Below, in pieces: positions 951-17,995 of a stretch of DNA of 21,223 bases. The notes below the pieces were generated by a model, which did not search any database, was not told where the DNA came from, and saw nothing but the letters and a program-made list of their open reading frames with translations. The stretch is from the IMG/VR virus record IMGVR_UViG_3300006802_000718, positions 1 to 21,223 of that record, one strand, 5' to 3'. This DNA is from a virus. Positions within the stretch are counted from its first letter, which is position 1. Each line of letters starts with the position of its first letter. The position numbers and the translations under genes are program-made.

Positions 951-1922
951 TTAATTTTGTCCTGTAAAAATTTGTTGATTCCCATACACCCTAGCATATC
1001 CAGACACTAAAGCATTTTCAGACACCCTAGCATTTCCAGACACCCTAGCATTTTCAAACACTAAAGCATTCCCATACACCCTAGCATATCCATATACTTT
1101 AGCATCTCCAGACACTTTAACATCCTCATACACCCTAGCATCCCCAAATACTCTAGCATTATCATACACTTCAGCATTTCCAGACACTTCAGCATTTCCA
1201 GACACTTTAGCATCTCCATACACTTTAGCATCTCCATACACCTTAGCATTATCATACACCCTAGCATTTCCATACACCTTAGCATTATCATACACCCTAG
1301 CATATCCAGACACTAAAGCATTTCCATACACCCTAGCATTTCCAGACACCCAAGCATTTCCATACACCCTAGCATATCCAGACACTAAAGCATTTCCATA
1401 CACCCAAGCATATCCAGACACTAAAGCATTTTCAGACACCCTAGCATATCCAGACACTTCAGCATTTCCAGACACTTCAGCATATCCAGACACTAAAGCA
1501 TTTTCAGACACCCAAGCATTTCCAGACACTAAAGCATTTTCAGACACCCAAGCATATCCAGACACTAAAGCATTTTCAGACACTTCAGCATATCCAGACA
1601 CTAAAGCATTTTCAGACACCCTAGCATATCCAGACACTAAAGCATTTTCAGACACCCTAGCATATCCAGACACTAAAGCATTTTCAGACACCCAAGCATA
1701 TCCAGACACTAAAGCATTTTCAGACACCCTAGCATATCCAGACACTAAAGCATTTTCAGACACCCAAGCATCTTCAGGTTGAGCTAGGTTATCCTCTATT
1801 GCTATCCAACCTCCCAAATCCCCAACTTTAATACCCATACTTGGTATGTCTCTTGTAGCTTGTATTTGGTACAGAATAACACCTTGGTGTGTGATAGTGT
1901 TAGTTGTGAGTTTGTATTTCAT
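951..1922 (-). CDS. Hexapeptide-repeat (left-handed beta-helix-like) protein, 44 repeats
   Basis: The protein has 323 residues. A cap of about 51 residues (MKYKLTTNTITHQG...VGDLGGWIAIEDNLAQPED) is followed by 44 uninterrupted hexapeptides of the form A-x-V-[S/Y/F]-[E/G/D]-[N/Y/D] and an 8-residue tail. Such hexapeptides normally fold as a left-handed parallel beta-helix with three hexapeptides per coil, which would give about 14-15 coils. Proteins with this cap (K-Y-K-L-T...GDLGGW) and VYGNA-type repeats are common in phages and bacteria and have no settled function. No acyltransferase catalytic residues are evident. The start ATG overlaps the stop of the upstream small gene (ATGA). A decayed second copy lies at 2554-2767. 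A rigid rod, scaffold or decoy role is only a guess. Confidence 0.85.
   Translation of the reverse strand: MKYKLTTNTITHQGVILYQIQATRDIPSMGIKVGDLGGWIAIEDNLAQPEDAWVSENALVSGYARVSENALVSGYAWVSENALVSGYARVSENALVSGYARVSENALVSGYAEVSENALVSGYAWVSENALVSGNAWVSENALVSGYAEVSGNAEVSGYARVSENALVSGYAWVYGNALVSGYARVYGNAWVSGNARVYGNALVSGYARVYDNAKVYGNARVYDNAKVYGDAKVYGDAKVSGNAEVSGNAEVYDNARVFGDARVYEDVKVSGDAKVYGYARVYGNALVFENARVSGNARVSENALVSGYARVYGNQQIFTGQN
978..1769 (-). repeat. Coding tandem repeat, 44 units of 18 bp with a 36-bp higher-order period
   Basis: The stretch is 792 bp, exactly 44 units of 18 bp, each encoding one hexapeptide. In the part nearest the gene's 5' end (roughly 1400-1769) units alternate between an EN-type and a GY-type hexapeptide, so the DNA repeats almost perfectly every 36 bp. 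Towards the 3' end the units diverge and become VYGN/VYDN-like. This gradient suggests recent expansion or homogenisation of one half. The repeats create spurious open frames on the same strand. Confidence 0.9.
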
Positions 1923-2553: not shown

Positions 2554-2767
2554 TTACAGATACACCTTAGCATTTTCATACACCCAAGCATTTCCAAACA
2601 CCTTAGCATTTTCAAACACCTTAGCATTCCCAAACACCAAAGCATTTCCAAACATCTGAGCATTCCCATCTTGGGAGATGGTTTCCTTCTATCTCAATAA
2701 GAGATAGAATTCTATACAGAGTAGTTTCTCCGTGTAGCTTGATCTCTTCAGTGAGTTTATATTTCAT
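2554..2767 (-). pseudogene. Decayed second copy of the hexapeptide-repeat protein
   Basis: An ATG at 2767 behind AAAGGAG opens a frame starting MKYKLTEEIKLHG and continuing TTLYRI, matching the cap of the 323-residue repeat protein. That frame ends after 48 codons at 2621. From about 2670 the next frame instead encodes six hexapeptides (AQMFGN, ALVFGN, AKVFEN, AKVFGN, AWVYEN, then AKVY) ending in TAA at 2554-2556. Cap and repeats are therefore out of frame, and most of the cap's second half and most repeats are missing. This is best read as a deletion plus frameshift remnant. The 48-residue product could still be made because the ribosome site is intact. The start overlaps the end of the primase-like gene by 11 nt. 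Confidence 0.75.
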
Positions 2768-3500
2768 AAAAATTCTCCTTTATAAAATTAAGTTCTGCAC
2801 AAGTGTGAAGTTTTGGATCACATTTACTAAGTATTGTTGAACATTTTATACCATAATGACTTATTTGTCTAGCTTTTTTTATCGAATATTCGTGCATATT
2901 TTCATCAAGAAATATGATATACTCTTTAAATTGCAACTTAAGCAATTGCAAAGGTTTAAAATTTACACCAAATAGGGGCATAACATACACTCCCAACTTC
3001 GATAATTTAATAGCTGATATGATATCTTCCACCAAAAAAAGCGCACTTGCTTTGTTGTAAGCATGACCGACCTTCCCATTAAAATATATTATATTTTTTT
3101 CTTTAATGTTCCCTTTTGTTAACCATTTGATTTTTTCATCTTTTTTAATGCTACGGGCCTGGTATCCAATTAATTCGCTACCCATCCAAAAGGGAAATAT
3201 AAGTCTACCCATGCCATCACTCCAAAGCACACCATTAAATAGCAAATCATTTTTTGACAAATCAAAGGATGCTATCCAATCGATGATTTTAGCTGGATAA
3301 ACTGTATTGCAATCGTCGGGCAGTGTAATCTTGGGGATAGATTGTGCTTCGGTTTTAGCAACAAAACTATTCTTGCATTGATAATAGCCACAACGAAAGC
3401 AATATTTTGATCCATCGGGATAAATTGCAAGATTATCACCTGCCCGGTCGTTGCCGTTTTTGTGGCAAGCCGGGCATCGTGTGAAGAGTATTCGTGCCAA
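2757..3500 (-). CDS. Zinc-finger TOPRIM primase-like protein, copy 2 (no helicase)
   Basis: This 247-residue protein resembles the primase half of T7 gp4. Cys9, Cys12, Cys34 and Cys37 form a zinc ribbon, a middle segment carries LIFPFW...IGYQARS, and the C-terminal half looks like a TOPRIM domain with FLVEDIISAIKLS (Glu158, residues 155-167) and IIFLDEN (Asp199). The usual DxD pair appears here as D-E-N, so one metal-binding acid may be missing. There is no Walker A motif and no helicase domain. The start is TTG at 3500: no in-frame ATG precedes the zinc finger, and AAAGAG lies just upstream, 2 nt after the previous stop. Copy 1 lies at 1-459. A priming role is inferred from family resemblance. 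Confidence 0.8.
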   Translation of the reverse strand: MARILFTRCPACHKNGNDRAGDNLAIYPDGSKYCFRCGYYQCKNSFVAKTEAQSIPKITLPDDCNTVYPAKIIDWIASFDLSKNDLLFNGVLWSDGMGRLIFPFWMGSELIGYQARSIKKDEKIKWLTKGNIKEKNIIYFNGKVGHAYNKASALFLVEDIISAIKLSKLGVYVMPLFGVNFKPLQLLKLQFKEYIIFLDENMHEYSIKKARQISHYGIKCSTILSKCDPKLHTCAELNFIKENFYEI

Positions 3501-4594: not shown

Positions 4595-4858
4595 TTATAT
4601 CTCACTGTAAAATGTTATGCCGCGATTGCGCAAAATCATTTTTAACATATGCTCAAATTGTGCTTGCTCATCTTTTGATTTTGGCATCTTAAATGTAGAT
4701 ATCGGATAATTATCACCAGCCAGGTATAATGATACATAATCACTATCATCATCTATATTGATTAAATCATAATCAATAATTTCTTTGCATAAAGATATGA
4801 AATCATTAGCAAAATAATATTCCTCAGTAACATTAGAATAAGCCATGAATTTAGGCAT
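4595..4858 (-). CDS. First gene of the leftward operon, unknown function (87 aa)
   Basis: The frame could be extended to a TTG at 4927, giving a lipoprotein-like leader. However, a near-perfect sigma-70 promoter overlaps that TTG, so a transcript from it would start only near 4919-4920. The ATG at 4858 is preceded by a G-rich GGGGAAGTGGGG stretch and gives a protein starting MPKFMAYSNVTEEYYF, rich in acidic residues (INIDDDSDY), with a possible C-terminal helix. This start implies a leader of about 60 nt. No family is recognised. Confidence 0.6.
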   Translation of the reverse strand: MPKFMAYSNVTEEYYFANDFISLCKEIIDYDLINIDDDSDYVSLYLAGDNYPISTFKMPKSKDEQAQFEHMLKMILRNRGITFYSEI

Positions 4859-4919
4859 AATATCCCCACTTCCCCAGCAACCGGCTGAGACATCGGTGAT
4901 TAGCAATAGCGCTAAACAT
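4859..4919 (-). promoter_or_regulatory. 5' leader of the leftward operon
   Basis: Between the predicted transcription start and the ATG at 4858 lie about 60 nt that are visibly richer in G and C than their surroundings. They include a short CAGC/GCTG stem around CGGTT close to the ribosome-binding region. They could be the 5' end of a longer protein from another start, or a structured leader that tunes translation. Nothing further can be supported. Confidence 0.35.
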
Positions 4920-4926
4920 GTATACA

Positions 4927-4954
4927 ATTATACTATAGATTTTTTAAAAGTCAA
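4927..4954 (-). promoter_or_regulatory. Leftward sigma-70-type promoter
   Basis: On the minus strand, TTGACT (4949-4954) and TATAAT (4927-4932) are separated by 16 nt. This is the best -35/-10 pair I found in the divergent region, and it points into the leftward operon. The -35 box is abutted by a perfect 11-bp inverted repeat, which suggests repression or activation at this site. Confidence 0.7.
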
Positions 4955-4980
4955 CTATTATTTATCTCTTAAATAATAGT
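4954..4980. promoter_or_regulatory. Perfect 11-bp inverted repeat next to the leftward -35 box
   Basis: ACTATTATTTA (4954-4964) and TAAATAATAGT (4970-4980) are exact inverted copies around TCTCT. The repeat shares one base with the -35 box of the leftward promoter, so a dimeric regulator bound here would contact RNA polymerase. A DNA operator is more likely than an RNA hairpin, since it lies upstream of the predicted transcription start. Confidence 0.6.
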
Positions 4981-5015
4981 ATTATTTTCATATATATATA
5001 TAGCGTGTGATCGAC

Positions 5016-5032
5016 TATATTATGATAATATA
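5016..5032. promoter_or_regulatory. Perfect 8-bp inverted repeat with 1-bp centre
   Basis: TATATTAT and ATAATATA are exact inverted copies around a single G. All-AT palindromes are expected sometimes in such AT-rich DNA, so support is weaker than for neighbouring elements, but it lies within the cluster of dyads upstream of the leftward promoter. Confidence 0.35.
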
Positions 5033-5042
5033 CTATCTATGC

Positions 5043-5061
5043 TATACGGCATTGCCGTATA
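5043..5061. promoter_or_regulatory. GC-containing inverted repeat, possible operator
   Basis: TATACGGC (5043-5050) and GCCGTATA (5054-5061) are perfect inverted copies around ATT. The CGGC/GCCG core is striking in DNA that is otherwise nearly all A and T. No T-run follows on either strand, so an intrinsic terminator is unlikely. It may be a protein-binding site. Confidence 0.5.
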
Positions 5062-5134
5062 ATATAACACATTGTATCTACTCAGTTTATATTGTCAGTT
5101 AATAGGTGTGATTAAAATCAATGACTTAGCACAC

Positions 5135-5155
5135 TTATCCACAGAGTTATCCACA
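5135..5155 (+). promoter_or_regulatory. Two direct perfect DnaA boxes
   Basis: TTATCCACA occurs exactly at 5135-5143 and again at 5147-5155, in the same orientation with 3 bp between. This is the strongest class of the bacterial DnaA box (TTATNCACA). Two exact copies 12 bp apart are very unlikely by chance. An extreme AT-rich tract follows from about 5340, as expected of an unwinding element. It suggests that the element recruits the host DnaA protein to start replication, or uses DnaA as a transcription regulator. Confidence 0.8.
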
Positions 5156-5175
5156 GGTAACATTATTGTTAAATG

Positions 5176-5192
5176 GCTATATTTAATATAGC
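5176..5192. repeat. Small inverted repeat
   Basis: GCTATAT (5176-5182) and ATATAGC (5186-5192) are perfect inverted copies around TTA, about 20 bp right of the DnaA boxes. Its role is unknown; it may belong to the origin. Confidence 0.35.
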
Positions 5193-5310
5193 TCATAAAA
5201 TAGATATAATGAAAAAAGACAATATATTTGTATTATAGAATGTTATTTAAATCGATTTTAAGGGGTCTAGAAGCAACTTTATACTATTAGGGTATATATT
5301 GGTATGTCTT

Positions 5311-5328
5311 AATCAATAATAATTGATT
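5311..5328. repeat. Small inverted repeat
   Basis: AATCAAT (5311-5317) and ATTGATT (5322-5328) are perfect inverted copies around AATA. It lies at the left border of the extreme AT-rich tract. The TTGATT arm could also act as a weak rightward -35 box, with TTATAT at 5346-5351 17 nt away. Confidence 0.3.
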
Positions 5329-5372
5329 GTAGAGCATCCTAGTTATTATATAAAAAAATAAACAGAGGGGGG

Positions 5373-5408
5373 ATAATATGTTTCTTCTTTAACAGAAGAA
5401 TATATTAT
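5373..5408 (+). repeat. Hairpin 0 with two stacked stems
   Basis: An outer stem ATAATAT (5373-5379) pairs with ATATTAT (5402-5408), and an inner stem TTCTTCT (5382-5388) pairs with AGAAGAA (5394-5400), with a small 2x1 internal loop between them and a TTAAC apical loop. It directly follows six consecutive G residues (5367-5372). Its sequence differs from the three downstream hairpins. Confidence 0.5.
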
Positions 5409-5431
5409 ATTAAATAATAATATATTTATGT

Positions 5432-5458
5432 ATAGAAACTACACAAAGTAGTTTCTAT
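5432..5458 (+). repeat. Hairpin A of a three-member family
   Basis: ATAGAAACTAC (5432-5442) pairs perfectly with GTAGTTTCTAT (5448-5458) around ACAAA. The outer ATAGAAA/TTTCTAT portion is identical in hairpins B and C, while the inner stem differs with matching changes on both arms. Confidence 0.6.
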
Positions 5459-5529
5459 TATTATATTACTTAATAATTCATTAGAGAATATTTAATTTAA
5501 TTAATTATTAATATAATATATAATTTAAT

Positions 5530-5558
5530 ATAGAAAACTATTTAAGATAGTTTTCTAT
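5530..5558 (+). repeat. Hairpin B of a three-member family
   Basis: ATAGAAAACTAT (5530-5541) pairs perfectly with ATAGTTTTCTAT (5547-5558) around TTAAG. It shares with hairpin C the upstream TTTAATATAGAAA, the TTTAAGAT loop region and the downstream TTTCTATTAATA. Confidence 0.6.
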
Positions 5559-5581
5559 TAATATATTTAATTATATTTAAT

Positions 5582-5610
5582 ATAGAAATTATCTTTAAGA
5601 TAATTTCTAT
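5582..5610 (+). repeat. Hairpin C of a three-member family
   Basis: ATAGAAATTATCT (5582-5594) pairs perfectly with AGATAATTTCTAT (5598-5610) around TTA. It has the longest stem of the three, 13 bp. No T-run follows, so an intrinsic terminator is unlikely on either strand. Confidence 0.6.
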
Positions 5611-5771
5611 TAATAATATATAATATTATTTAATAATTATAATTAATATTAATAATAATATATTAATATATATTTATATATTAAAAATACACTATAAAAT
5701 ATATCTTGTCAAGAATTAATTTAATATATGTTTATAATACCCTGTCATAATAATTATGTATGTGGTTTTTC

Positions 5772-5816
5772 TGCAACAGGGGTATGGGGGATAGGGGTGT
5801 TCTTTATAGGGTTGCA
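5772..5816 (+). other. G-rich block with quadruplex potential, framed by an inverted repeat
   Basis: Four G runs (GGGG 5779-5782, GGGGG 5786-5790, GGGG 5794-5797, GGG 5809-5811) are separated by 3, 3 and 11 nt. The block is bracketed by TGCAAC (5772-5777) and GTTGCA (5811-5816). In DNA this AT-rich such a strand-biased G cluster stands out. It lies about 75 bp before the first late gene, so it would be in the 5' leader of a rightward transcript, or part of the origin. Confidence 0.5.
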
Positions 5817-5891
5817 TTACAACAAAATATTTTCTACTAAAAATTATCAATATCAAGGGAACTTATTTAATATTTAATAATCAAGGATTAT

Positions 5892-6398
5892 ATGGATAAA
5901 TTTAAAGATGTTCTTGACAGATATAGAACACTATCAATATTTTATGAATATCATAATCCTGAGTATGAATATTATTATTCTATCGGGAACAAAGATATTA
6001 ATGTAGAAGGTAAGAATATTCCATCCTTGTATAAATTATACATGAGCTATGTTCATGTTCCAGGACAAGAATATGATTTTGCTGTAGAACATTTGGGTGG
6101 ATGGAAGCATTGGAAGAAGCTCTGTGATAATGCTAATTTACGCAAGATTATAGCAGAATGGCATAATGAAATGGAAGTGAAGATACGTGCAAGTGCTATA
6201 AAGAATATGCTTTCTCTTTCTACAGAAAATAATGCTGCTGGTGCCAATGCAGCAAAGTGGCTTGCTGAAAAGGGATATGAACTAAAAAGAGGACGTCCAA
6301 GTAAAGCAGAACGAGAAGGCTATCTAAAAAAAGAAGAACAAATAAATTCTGCTATTGATGAAGATTTAGAACGTGTAGGACTAATATTAGTTAAATAA
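5892..6398 (+). CDS. Terminase small subunit-like protein
   Basis: The 168-residue protein starts at an ATG behind AAGGATTAT. It reads SLYKLYMSYVHVPGQEYDFAVEHLGGWKHWKKL, then helical IIAEWHNEMEVKIRASAIKNMLSLS, NAAKWLAEKGYEL and KRGRPSKAER. The last motif, an AT-hook-like GRP in a basic run, and the AAKWLAEKGY helix before it are typical of small terminase or DNA-packaging adaptor proteins of short-tailed phages, which recognise phage DNA and hand it to the large subunit. Being the first gene of the late operon fits. The large subunit is not adjacent but about 2.5 kb downstream. Assignment is by motif and position only. Confidence 0.55.
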   Translation: MDKFKDVLDRYRTLSIFYEYHNPEYEYYYSIGNKDINVEGKNIPSLYKLYMSYVHVPGQEYDFAVEHLGGWKHWKKLCDNANLRKIIAEWHNEMEVKIRASAIKNMLSLSTENNAAGANAAKWLAEKGYELKRGRPSKAEREGYLKKEEQINSAIDEDLERVGLILVK

Positions 6399-8727: not shown

Positions 8728-8874
8728 ATGAAAACTCAAAAAAAAGAAAAACCTATATCTACAAAACTATCTAAAACTGGACAAGAATTTAATAAAAAAT
8801 TTAGAGCTACAAGAAAAGAAGGAAAAGCAACTTTATCTTTCAAAGGAAAGTCTTATACTACAAAACTGAAGTAA
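8728..8874 (+). CDS. Basic mini-protein (48 aa)
   Basis: The ATG directly follows the holin stop (TAA-ATG) and the stop overlaps the terminase start (TAATG). The sequence is rich in Lys and ends FNKKFRATRKEGKATLSFKGKSYTTKLK. The pattern F...F...R..GK.TF.(F/W).GK.Y.TK is recurrent in tiny proteins of many short-tailed phages, where its role is unknown. Its place inside the coupled chain between holin and terminase supports it as a real gene. Confidence 0.65.
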   Translation: MKTQKKEKPISTKLSKTGQEFNKKFRATRKEGKATLSFKGKSYTTKLK

Positions 8875-10397
8875 TGCAAGATAAATATGCTGTTATACGA
8901 GAAGCAGCAGAGAGTAATGTACTAACTTTTATTAAATTGGTGGCCCCATATATGTATATGGGGGCTATACATGAAGAACTATTAGCATGGGCAACTAGAC
9001 AAGAAGGACTAGATAATAAACTTATCTTAATGCCTAGGGACCACTTAAAAAGTAAATGTGCAGCTTTTATTGCTGCTTGGTGGATTACTAAAGATCCCAC
9101 TGAAACAATATTATATGTATCTGCTACTGCTTCCCTTGCTGAGAAGCAACTAGGGCAAATAAAGGGAATATTAGAAAGTAATATTTATAGAAGATATTGG
9201 CCAGAGATGGTTAATGCTGAGGAAGGGAAAAGGGCCAGATGGAATACTGAGGAAATTATAGTAGACCATCCTATACGTTGTGCTGAAGGCATAGCAGATC
9301 CTTCTATAAAAGCAATAGGTATTACGGGGAGTGTAACTGGTTTTCATGCTAGTAAAGTAGTACTTGATGATTTAGTAACTCCCCAAAACGCTTATACAGA
9401 AGATGGTAGAAATAAAGTAGCAAGTTTATATTCACAACTTGCTTCTATTGAAAGTGCTACTGCACAAGAACTTGTTGTTGGTACTAGATATGATCCTAGG
9501 GATTTATATAATGATCTTATAGTAATGAAAGAAACCTTTTTTAATAATGAAGGTGAAGAAGAAGAACAAAATGTGTATGAGGTATTTCAAAGGGTAGTTG
9601 AAATAGATGGGGAATTTTTATGGCCAAGAAGTCAAAGGAAAGATGGAAAGGCTTTTGGGTTTGATGCTCAAATTCTAGCTAGGAAGAAGGCAAAATATAT
9701 AGATACTTCTCAATTTTATGCCCAATATTATAATAATCCAAATGATCCGGGTCAACAAGTTATTCAGGATAAATGGTTTCAATACTATGATCCAAAACTA
9801 TTAAATAATAAAGAAGGCGTTTGGTTTATAAAAGATAGGAAATTAAATATCTTTGCTGCAATTGATTTTGCTTTTTCCCGTAACAAAAAAGCAGATAATA
9901 CTGCTTTAGTTGTTGTTGGTATTGATGGGGATAATAATTATTATGTTTTAGATATAAAACGATTTAAAACAGATAGAATAAAAGAATATTATGAGCATAT
10001 ATTAACTACCCATAGTAAATGGGGATATAGAAAAATAAGAGCAGAAATCACTGTAGCACAACAAGCAATTGTAACAGAATTAAAAGAGAGTTATATAAAA
10101 AAAGATGGACTCTCTTTATCCATAGATGAATATAGACCTTCAAGAAATGAAGGAGATAAACGAGAACGGATAGAAGCAGTGCTTTCTCCAAAGTATGAAA
10201 ATTTGCAAGTTTGGCATTATAAAGGTGGGAATTGCCAACTTTTAGAAGAAGAACTTAGACTAGCTAAAGCTCCACATGATGATATTAAAGATGCCTTGGC
10301 TAATGCTATAGCTATATCAAAACCACCAATGAGACAACAAACAATGCAAATACATAATAATGTTTTATATCATAGCAGATTTGGTGGGCTTAGATAA
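8874..10397 (+). CDS. Terminase large subunit
   Basis: The 507-residue packaging motor and nuclease has an N-terminal ATPase with a Walker A-like loop LMPRDHLKSK (residues 52-61, deviant, as in many podovirus terminases), a strand ILYVSATASLAEKQLGQIKGIL, and Walker B VVLDD (162-166), with Asp in place of the usual Glu. The RNase H-like nuclease domain begins near residue 325 with AAIDFAFSRNKKADNTALVVVGID (Asp331) and ends with PHDDIKDALANAI near residue 470. Together these cover both domains expected of the family at normal length. It docks on the portal encoded next door, with which it overlaps as TAATG. The small subunit candidate is at 5892-6398. Confidence 0.93.
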   Translation: MQDKYAVIREAAESNVLTFIKLVAPYMYMGAIHEELLAWATRQEGLDNKLILMPRDHLKSKCAAFIAAWWITKDPTETILYVSATASLAEKQLGQIKGILESNIYRRYWPEMVNAEEGKRARWNTEEIIVDHPIRCAEGIADPSIKAIGITGSVTGFHASKVVLDDLVTPQNAYTEDGRNKVASLYSQLASIESATAQELVVGTRYDPRDLYNDLIVMKETFFNNEGEEEEQNVYEVFQRVVEIDGEFLWPRSQRKDGKAFGFDAQILARKKAKYIDTSQFYAQYYNNPNDPGQQVIQDKWFQYYDPKLLNNKEGVWFIKDRKLNIFAAIDFAFSRNKKADNTALVVVGIDGDNNYYVLDIKRFKTDRIKEYYEHILTTHSKWGYRKIRAEITVAQQAIVTELKESYIKKDGLSLSIDEYRPSRNEGDKRERIEAVLSPKYENLQVWHYKGGNCQLLEEELRLAKAPHDDIKDALANAIAISKPPMRQQTMQIHNNVLYHSRFGGLR

Positions 10398-15604: not shown

Positions 15605-16381
15605 ATGGCTAGAATGACTTTGTTAGAGATGGTAACAGACATTTTATCTGATATGGATAGTGATCCTGTTACTACTTATACTGAAACAGTTGAAAGTAAA
15701 CAAATAGCACAGATTATTAAAACATGCTATTTTAATATAGTAGATAGTAGAGAATGGCCTCATTTTATGAAAACCTTTACTATAACAGAGTCATCTGTTG
15801 CAACACCTACCCATATGACATTAGCAACAACAGTTAAAAGTTTAAAATATGTTAAGTATAATACACGAACTTCAGGCGGAAGTTATGATACCTATAATTT
15901 GGTTCGTTTTTTAGAACCACAAAGATTTATGGATATATTAGATGCTAGAACAAGTGGAGCTAGCATCACTGTTATTACAGATGCAAATAATATAAAATAT
16001 AAGATATTAACAAATATAGCACCTACATATTACACTACATTTGATGAACAAACTATTATCTTTGATAGTTATGATAGTGGAATAGACACCTATTTAAGAA
16101 CAACAAAAACACAATGCTATGGTATGGTATATCCGTCTGTTACTCTAACAGATGGGGTTTATTTTGATCTTCCTACAAATATGTATAGTTTACTACTTGC
16201 TGAAAGTAAAGCAACAGCTTTCCAAGTTTTAAAACAAGTTAAAAATCCACTAGCTGAATTCTTTGTTACTACTCAAAGAGCTAAATTCCAAGATCAAGAT
16301 TGGAAAGTACGTAAAAATTTTAAAAGTAAAGATTTTAATATATTATTTACACAACCAAGTAATGAGAATGTAAATGGCTAG
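15605..16381 (+). CDS. Head-tail adaptor (T7 gp11-like), paralog 1 of 3
   Basis: This 258-residue protein begins MARMTLLEMVTDILSDMDSDPV, with a helix IAQIIKTCYFNIVDSREWPH. The pattern of an N-terminal helix pair ending in R-x-W matches the T7 gp11 (tail tubular protein A) adaptor family. ATPTHMTL, PTYYTTFDEQTIIFDS, KTQCYG and YFDLP follow and are shared with the next two genes. The adaptor forms a 12-subunit ring between portal and nozzle. Position before the nozzle gene fits. Its last 8 bases (ATGGCTAG) are the start of the next paralog. Confidence 0.7.
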   Translation: MARMTLLEMVTDILSDMDSDPVTTYTETVESKQIAQIIKTCYFNIVDSREWPHFMKTFTITESSVATPTHMTLATTVKSLKYVKYNTRTSGGSYDTYNLVRFLEPQRFMDILDARTSGASITVITDANNIKYKILTNIAPTYYTTFDEQTIIFDSYDSGIDTYLRTTKTQCYGMVYPSVTLTDGVYFDLPTNMYSLLLAESKATAFQVLKQVKNPLAEFFVTTQRAKFQDQDWKVRKNFKSKDFNILFTQPSNENVNG

Positions 16382-17141
16382 AATGACCTTACTAGAAATG
16401 GTTAGAAATATTCACTTAGACTTAACTGAAGGTGAGTATATTTTTACTATAAATCAAAATATGTTATCTACACATATTACAGAAATTATTCGTACTAGCT
16501 ATTTTGATATTATTGATAGTCGTGAGTGGCCACATTTATTAAAATCGTTTCAACTTACAGAAACATCAGCCAGCACTCCTACTCACATGACGTTACCTAC
16601 AACAAAAACAAATTTACACTATGTAAAATATAATACTAAAACATCAGGAGGGGCAGCTAATCAATTTACATTAATTAAGTATTTACCTCCACAAAGATTT
16701 ATGAATTTGGTAGATGCTCGAGATAGTACACTTGGTACTGTAACAAGTATTACTGATTCATCCGGAATTCTAATTAATATTACTAATAACGCAGCACCGA
16801 CATACTATACATCATTTGATGAACAGACAATCATTTTTGATAGTTATATTGTTGCTTTAGAATCCTATTTAGTTACAACAAAGACGCAATGTTATGGGAT
16901 GATATATCCAACATTTACTGAGAGTGATACATTCTATTTTGATTTACCTCCAGAAATGTTTAATTTATTACTTCATGAATCTAAGTCAAAAGCCTTTTTG
17001 ACTCTAAAGGGTGTTCCTAATATTAAATCTGATCTTATAGTTGAAACTATACTATCTAAACTTGATACAGATAGTTGGAAAATCAGAAAGAACAAGAATT
17101 ATCAAAGTAGGCGTACTAGAATGGATAATAATAATGGCTAG
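16374..17141 (+). CDS. Head-tail adaptor (T7 gp11-like), paralog 2 of 3
   Basis: The 255-residue protein shares with its neighbours the opening MARMTLLEM, IIDSREWPH, STPTHMTL, PTYYTSFDEQTIIFDS, KTQCYGMIYP and YFDLP. It starts inside the previous gene with an 8-bp overlap ATGGCTAG and ends with the identical 8-bp overlap into the third copy, so all three copies share the same boundaries. Similarity runs from end to end, weakest around residues 15-30 and at the C terminus. It may be a distinct subunit of a mixed adaptor ring or a redundant copy. Confidence 0.7.
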   Translation: MARMTLLEMVRNIHLDLTEGEYIFTINQNMLSTHITEIIRTSYFDIIDSREWPHLLKSFQLTETSASTPTHMTLPTTKTNLHYVKYNTKTSGGAANQFTLIKYLPPQRFMNLVDARDSTLGTVTSITDSSGILINITNNAAPTYYTSFDEQTIIFDSYIVALESYLVTTKTQCYGMIYPTFTESDTFYFDLPPEMFNLLLHESKSKAFLTLKGVPNIKSDLIVETILSKLDTDSWKIRKNKNYQSRRTRMDNNNG

Positions 17142-17892
17142 AATGACTCTTTTAGAAATGACTAAGGATATAATGTATGAGTTAGATCCTAGTCACCCTG
17201 TATATACTATTTATCAAACAATAGAAAGTGAAAAAATAGTAAATATAATCATATCTACTTATTATAATCTAATTGATGGTAAGGATTGGCCTAATTTATA
17301 TAAACCTTTTCAACTAACACAAAGTAGTGCTAGTACTCCCACCCACATGACTATTAGTAATAGTGTATTGGATTTTCAATATGTTAAATACAATTGTAGA
17401 AGTAGTACAGATACTAAGGATAAATTTGTAGAAATAAAATTTCTACTCCCAAAAGATTTTATGAAGCAACTTGATTCTAGAGATAGTAGTGCATCTAATA
17501 TAGATGTAATTACGGATGCTTCTGGAATATATCTTAATATTCTTAATGATAGAGAACCTACATATTATACATCATTTGATGAAAAAACAATTGTTTTTGA
17601 CTCCTTTGATAGTGATGTAGAAACATATTTAAAAACTATTAAAACTCAATGTTATGGGAAAGTATATCCTTCTGTTACTATAGATGATAGTACTTATTTA
17701 GATTTGCCCATTGAAGCCTTTTCCTTATTATTAAATGATGCTAAATCTCAAGTGTATTTAACAATATTGAATACTCCAAACGTTAAAGCAGAACAAAATG
17801 CTGTTACTCAAAGAAGGAGAATGAGCCAAGAAGCTTGGAAAATACGAAATGGAATTTCTTACCCTGATTATGGACGAAAAGGTAAAAAATAA
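17134..17892 (+). CDS. Head-tail adaptor (T7 gp11-like), paralog 3 of 3
   Basis: An in-frame ATG at 17041 exists, but the ATG at 17134 reproduces the MARMTLLEM start of the other two copies and the same ATGGCTAG overlap, so it is chosen (252 residues). Family landmarks are LIDGKDWPN (KDW in place of REW), STPTHMT, PTYYTSFDEKTIVFDS, KTQCYGKVYP and YLDLP. It is the most diverged of the three. The end overlaps the following mini-gene as TAATG. The role is as for the other copies; which copy contacts the nozzle cannot be told. Confidence 0.68.
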   Translation: MARMTLLEMTKDIMYELDPSHPVYTIYQTIESEKIVNIIISTYYNLIDGKDWPNLYKPFQLTQSSASTPTHMTISNSVLDFQYVKYNCRSSTDTKDKFVEIKFLLPKDFMKQLDSRDSSASNIDVITDASGIYLNILNDREPTYYTSFDEKTIVFDSFDSDVETYLKTIKTQCYGKVYPSVTIDDSTYLDLPIEAFSLLLNDAKSQVYLTILNTPNVKAEQNAVTQRRRMSQEAWKIRNGISYPDYGRKGKK

Positions 17893-17995
17893 TGCCCTTA
17901 AAGAAAGGAAAATCAAAGAAAGTAATTATCCACAAGAACAAGCAATAGCTATTGCTATAAATAAAGCAGGAAAACAAAGGAAGAAAAAGAAATAA
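17892..17995 (+). pseudogene. Frame-broken mini-gene of a common podovirus small-protein type
   Basis: From the ATG at 17892 the frame gives MPLKKGKSKKVIIHKNKQ and stops after 18 codons. In the frame one base back (-1), downstream sequence reads NYPQEQAIAIAINKAGKQRKKKK up to the TAA at 17993-17995. Small podovirus proteins with MPLKKG.S....I at the start and P..QAVAIA..KAG....K at the end are familiar, so the two halves look like one gene disrupted by a deletion or frameshift. No obvious slippery heptamer is present. The downstream gene starts in the TAATG of the second frame, so translation in that frame would still be useful for coupling. Confidence 0.55.

Follow-up and report, generated by a model that had tools for sequence, protein, structure and literature searches.

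Gene layout and the gap between the divergent operons

The window analysed here is the whole of a 21,223-base virus record. Its ORF map divides into two arms, one of replication-type genes running leftward and the other a rightward packaging and structure operon that encodes the large terminase subunit (TerL), a head-tail adaptor and tail genes (Table 1). The closest relatives of the TerL are found in Zobellviridae and their allies, with identities of 62% to Methylophilales phage MEP401, 53–56% to cobaviruses and 52% to ICP2, and an identical TerL is carried by one 30.7-kb IMG/VR contig. Judged from its sequence, the phage is a lytic Zobellviridae-type podophage. An earlier sequence-only reading of this DNA had spoken of primase-like proteins, and the matches of the ORFs at 2757–3500 and 1–459 to phrog_47/239 DNA primase bear this out; the two genes, both on the minus strand, are similar to each other and possibly paralogues. 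The same arm holds an early gene (951–1922, minus strand) made of near-identical repeats (VSENALVSGYA...), with a strong local GC skew and a match to the YdcK beta-solenoid repeat (E = 1.5e-45). On the opposite arm, three consecutive genes with MARMTLLEM and look-alikes (15605–17892, plus strand) appear to be a tandem triplication, the first of them matching the tail protein phrog_7592.

Table 1 Features of the window and box pairs in another phage group (positions are those of the window unless a contig is named)
Feature	Position	Strand	Basis
Second primase-like ORF	1–459	−	phrog_47/239 DNA primase match
Primase-like early gene, zinc-finger motif and primase core	2757–3500	−	phrog_47, E = 7.5e-19; 40% to ctOsX528
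First ORF of the leftward operon	4595–4927	−	ORF map
Likely early sigma70-type promoter, TTGACT-16-TATAAT, 11/12	4927–4954	−	consensus scan, by itself no proof of function
DnaA box 1, TTATCCACA	5135–5143	+	exact match
DnaA box 2, TTATCCACA, repeated in the orientation of box 1	5147–5155	+	exact match
Conserved noncoding block, ATTTAAA...TTTTAAGGGGTCTAG...AATAATTGATTGTAGAGC	5239–5346		pairwise alignment with L018 1200–1320; block also in L017
AT tract	5381–5720		composition, GC 0.094 (9%)
Perfect hairpin, 11-bp stem	5432–5458	+	
Perfect hairpin, 12-bp stem	5530–5558	+	
Perfect hairpin, 13-bp stem	5582–5610	+	
G-rich block adjoining the terminal-repeat edge	5778–5799	+	18-sequence alignment
Conserved genome-end element, TGCATTACAAC|AAAATATTTTCTACTAAAAATTATCAATATC	5813–5854	+	predicted terminase cut or DTR edge near 5823/5824
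First rightward (late) gene, phrog_8035	5892–6398	+	PHROGs E = 1e-40; terminase-small-subunit-like by position
Terminase large subunit (TerL)	8874–10397	+	near Zobellviridae, 62% to MEP401
Box pair upstream of TerL-like gene, other phage group	L157 5356, L235 2286, L193 3550, L167 8313, L207 3422		
Box pair upstream of TerL-like gene, other phage group	L188 4149, L223 5306, L194 4894, L238 2856		

The two operons diverge from a gap of 964 nt (4928–5891) with a GC content of 0.20. Within it, two exact DnaA boxes stand as a direct repeat, their starts 12 bp apart and a 3-bp spacer between them. An exact-box pair within 25 bp arose in none of 20,000 order-1 Markov simulations of the gap, in 1 of 20,000 at order 2 and in 13 of 20,000 at order 3, the last figure being inflated because the boxes themselves feed the model. 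A chance origin of the pair is unlikely. Single boxes, expected at ~0.1 per kb, are too weak for comparison, and only clusters were used for that purpose. A third exact TTATCCACA occurs at 17926–17934, in a short gap between genes that end at 17892 and start at 17995. The promoter-like site at the start of the leftward operon is ~180 bp from the boxes. The cumulative GC-skew minimum of the window, at 5154, coincides with the divergence of transcription, which explains it; we rejected it as origin evidence since box-less phages show the same minimum at this place.

The AT tract contains the 300 nt of lowest GC in the window (5399–5698, 0.077), and the RNA fold of 5360–5730 has a z of −6.3. The DNA that leads to it from the boxes is moderately AT-rich (GC 0.18 at 5156–5237 and 0.27 at 5238–5380). 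Of the hairpins, considered as intrinsic terminators, only that at 5432–5458 fits a terminator-like rule, and an Rfam search of 4800–6000 gave no match. The sequence-only reading had described TTATCCACA as present twice, in direct orientation, 12 bp apart and between divergent operons, all of which holds exactly; it had also placed an extreme AT tract with hairpins beside the boxes, and here the tract and its three hairpins are real, but the tract begins ~225 bp downstream of the boxes and is not directly adjacent to them. Arrays of short perfect hairpins with differing stems and AT-rich spacers occur in the window (5432–5610), in L018 (1672–1696) and at the ends of contig G006, and were not found in the other relatives scanned. 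One end of G006 (L112 411–758) has ten hairpins in 350 nt, with an RNA fold z of −17.6, and the other (L113 19076–19399) has six.

A genome-end junction recognised by homology

When the gap served as query in a distant DNA search, ~5775–5855 matched noncoding DNA of other Zobellviridae; the remaining matches were short and in unrelated phages. When window 5778–5854 was aligned with 17 other sequences, the G-rich block followed by TGCAnnACACC..AAAATTTTCT...AAAAATTAT proved common to all 18 phages, and the annotated DTR edges of ICBM1, ICBM2, VpV262 and RIO-1 align at this element. Termini of the ICBM phages have been mapped from PacBio reads, and cobaviruses are described as having a conserved G+C-rich region at the DTR end (PMC6775973). 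The annotated repeat of Klyazma, 711 bp long and verified by Sanger sequencing (PMC9960094), stops 78 bp short of the element instead of ending inside it. Several deposited contigs start or end within ~150 bp of the element, and a degenerate pattern written for it retrieved, among viral contigs, close relatives only.

The divergent early and late arms and the related TerL (53–62% identity to several Zobellviridae isolates) place the window among phages with a Zobellviridae-type junction. By homology, the gap at 4928–5891 is the concatemer junction, or packaging site, of such a podophage, first of all a genome-end junction, which escaped the sequence-only reading when it took the gap for a control region. 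The terminase cut is predicted near 5823, a boundary drawn by alignment to the four annotated DTR edges, so that the boxes would lie ~670 bp from that genome end, on its early side. With the junctions of the cobaviruses and other Zobellviridae (ICBM1–3, VpV262, RIO-1 and Klyazma) the window shares the two-arm layout, the G-rich block and the terminal-repeat-edge element, but those junctions, unlike that of the window, have no DnaA-box clusters. The element permits genome-end prediction in metagenomic contigs of Zobellviridae-type phages.

DnaA-box clusters in related phages

Relatives were gathered through the first late gene (window 5892–6398), with the boxes disregarded; they include L030, a freshwater group and L042/L044. 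A cluster was defined as two or more boxes within 40 bp, and in ~1.4 Mb of TerL- or TerS-related, redundant records all clusters fell in the junction (window, L030, L042/L044, L055/L057 and G048). As the junction makes up roughly 1 kb of a 40–50 kb genome, this agreement, uncorrected for phylogeny, is not expected by chance. L030 has six boxes in mixed orientation and L042/L044 an inverted pair. The freshwater group (L054, L055, L057 and L060, with the contig parts L094, L096 and L098) has a single box or a pair at the same position of the alignment, next to an AT-rich block that is highly conserved and lies on the early side; the box closer to the AT tract reads TTAT[A/C]CACA in 7 of 8 sequences. 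G048, whose TerL is 54% identical to that of the window, came from a search for box pairs that took no account of position; its three TTATNCACA sites, the only ones in its 45.8 kb, lie within 32 bp and ~200 bp from the element. A second box-pair search yielded L291, probably a further case, in which the boxes immediately precede a G-rich block and late genes and the cut element is less clear.

In all box-bearing lineages the boxes are upstream of the early operon. How many there are, which way they point and how far they lie from the AT tract differ between lineages: they are in plus orientation in the window and in minus orientation in G048 and the freshwater group, L044 has an inverted pair, and the six of L030 are mixed. 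The relatives support selection acting on the boxes.

Many lineages are box-less. The nearest relatives, the partial contigs L017 and L018, have no boxes in the available part of the junction (423 nt analysed for L018, a contig with 1.5 kb before the element, where by eye the small genes run rightward). Nor were there boxes in L080/L081, MEP401, ctOsX528, CW02, 1.264.O, VpV262, RIO-1, ICBM2 and Klyazma; Saratov-12 and MJW have one TTATACACA each, and none of the cultured Zobellviridae checked has a cluster. The strength of the AT tract does not track with the boxes across relatives, L080 having a tract without boxes, and G048 and L044 boxes without a strong tract. The search of related phages for paired boxes at the same position, which the sequence-only reading had proposed as a check, found clusters at the junction in several lineages but left many without them.

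The palindrome-like GTTACTAGTAAC/T recurs several times around the junction and early genes of L055, L057, L054, L060, L080 and L030 and might be a site for a phage regulator.

Possible roles of the boxes

A DnaA gene was found in none of the ten Zobellviridae-type records searched, so any DnaA acting at the boxes would be that of the host. Among the proteins of G048 are a T7-like PolA, an exonuclease and a primase-helicase fusion, while the 13 of its early proteins that were scanned included no recognised initiator. The lack of both a phage DnaA and a recognised G048 initiator favours a junction origin, or a site of origin control, that would work with host DnaA. T7-type phage RNA polymerase (PF00940) had no match in ten records, although a control set was likewise without match; no RNA polymerase is reported for Klyazma and SIO1 (PMC9960094, PMC6775973). 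The contrast that the sequence-only reading had drawn with T7-type phages was overstated, given that the box-bearing G048 has a T7-like PolA and primase-helicase.

We consider it possible, at somewhat short of an even chance, that the boxes bind host DnaA and serve an origin at the junction, or its control. In the virion the junction would be split, so that the early and late operons come to lie at opposite ends, each beside a terminal repeat. The terminase would cut at the conserved G-rich/TGCA...AAATT element near 5823, and the host-DnaA binding cluster would be carried on the early side of the cut. Host DnaA may then bind the paired boxes and help to open the neighbouring AT-rich junction DNA, or mark it, as the replication start, after which phage primase, helicase and PolA-type polymerase would take over. 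A cluster of consensus boxes, as expected of an origin, is present in the window as two exact, non-random copies, whereas the AT-rich element that an origin would have beside them is ~225 bp off and, across relatives, uncoupled from them. The host-DnaA origin proposed from the sequence alone stands in part: the boxes are non-random and recur at the junction of phages in which no DnaA gene was found, but the nearest relatives and cultured phages are without clusters and the AT tract does not go with the boxes. DnaA binding, duplex opening and origin activity are what we infer from boxes that are present, a junction architecture recognised by homology and clusters that recur.

Like bacterial oriC and DnaA-dependent plasmid origins, the window has boxes that match the consensus exactly, two of them in direct repeat at a spacing of about one helical turn, and AT-rich DNA on the side to which the boxes point. 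It differs from them in having two boxes only and ~225 bp before the extreme AT tract; no DnaA-trio array is evident in the window by eye, and other lineages have reversed boxes. The element is a candidate origin. Coliphage 186 and P1 oriR reportedly need or use host DnaA, a case of phage replication drawing on the host initiator as proposed for the window; these phages are temperate, have their own initiators and are not known to use DnaA at a packaging junction. At oriLambda, host DnaA sites lie in a phage control region near promoters, as in the window, but lambda has its own O/P initiator, none being recognised here, and it resumes DNA synthesis in dnaA mutants (PMC11853086).

The main rival to the origin reading is that DnaA acts as a transcription regulator near the early promoters, activating or timing the early operon and perhaps origin transcription, in the way that it does near the origin of lambda. 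In its favour, every box-bearing lineage has its boxes upstream of the early operon, a strong promoter-like site is present in the window (4954–4927), and the freshwater boxes adjoin the highly conserved AT-rich block of the early side; lambda gives a precedent, with DnaA footprints near the promoters of oriLambda and transcription stimulated by DnaA (PMC3985674). How far the boxes lie from the likely promoter, and how they are oriented to it, is, however, not fixed between lineages, and we regard this role as unlikely, though a serious contender. The boxes vary in number, orientation and distance, which suits neither the set geometry of an oriC-like origin nor an activator bound at a set position and leaves room for titration: the cluster might sequester host DnaA as a datA-like decoy, stopping initiation of the host chromosome as phage copies rise. 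The six boxes of L030 and three of G048 speak for it, and a number and orientation that vary suit a binding sink better than they suit a fixed origin, but two boxes per genome are a weak sink, and a sink needs no placement at the junction, where every cluster was nevertheless found, which makes this explanation rather improbable.

The likeness to DnaA boxes might also be secondary, the sequence being read by a phage-encoded protein or belonging to the terminase, packaging or concatemer-resolution machinery. The junction is by homology the packaging site, and other motifs (GTTACTAGTAAC, hairpin arrays) recur there too; yet in 7 of 8 freshwater sequences the box departs only in a way that the DnaA consensus allows (A for C at the variable position), and the same 9-mer returns in lineages that share little else in this region. 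We judge this improbable, and very improbable the idea that an AT-rich region just happens to hold two functionless boxes. Most isolates and the available junction part of the nearest relatives are without boxes, and one exact box also stands at 17926, as such an accident would have it, but simulated pairs were very rare and, across several lineages, every cluster lies in a region that takes up roughly 1 kb of a 40–50 kb genome.

More broadly, and tentatively, as a proposal well short of established, a group of lytic T7-like podophages devoid of an RNA polymerase of their own may use host DnaA to start replicating at the packaging junction, the cluster being repeatedly gained and lost and the cut and the start sharing one control region. 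How Zobellviridae-type phages start replication is not settled in the literature found, and those described have no T7-like RNA polymerase; the recurrent cluster at the genome-end junction provides a specific, testable site. If true, infection would be tied to the availability of the host initiator, a dependence already known from plasmids and from a few temperate phages. DnaA boxes have been given for phages as a software prediction (PMC11512268), and a survey of Alphaproteobacteria phages saw no positional bias of DnaA sites (PMC9437464). In the literature searched, mostly outside subscription papers, no description of DnaA clusters at the junctions of Zobellviridae came to light.

Beyond this family, at least 120 viral contigs (L123–L242) have direct pairs (TTATCCACANNNTTATCCACA), compared with 6 that have the reversed pattern. 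Of 130 pairs, 94 are not within ORFs of at least 100 aa, although these ORFs take up 68% of the DNA, and none of 40 tested viral records with direct pairs had a DnaA gene. We do not count this excess as proof for the family, because it spans many phage groups and codon bias may differ between the two patterns. From the exact box string no host was inferred, its 17 bacterial-genome stretches being in unrelated taxa. Another phage group has a direct box pair ~300–850 bp upstream of a distantly TerL-like gene (27–30% identity; Table 1). Finally, in the box-bearing relative G022, an early-arm ORF (L120 5886–6401, minus strand) looks by eye like an ECF-type sigma factor and could redirect the host RNA polymerase.
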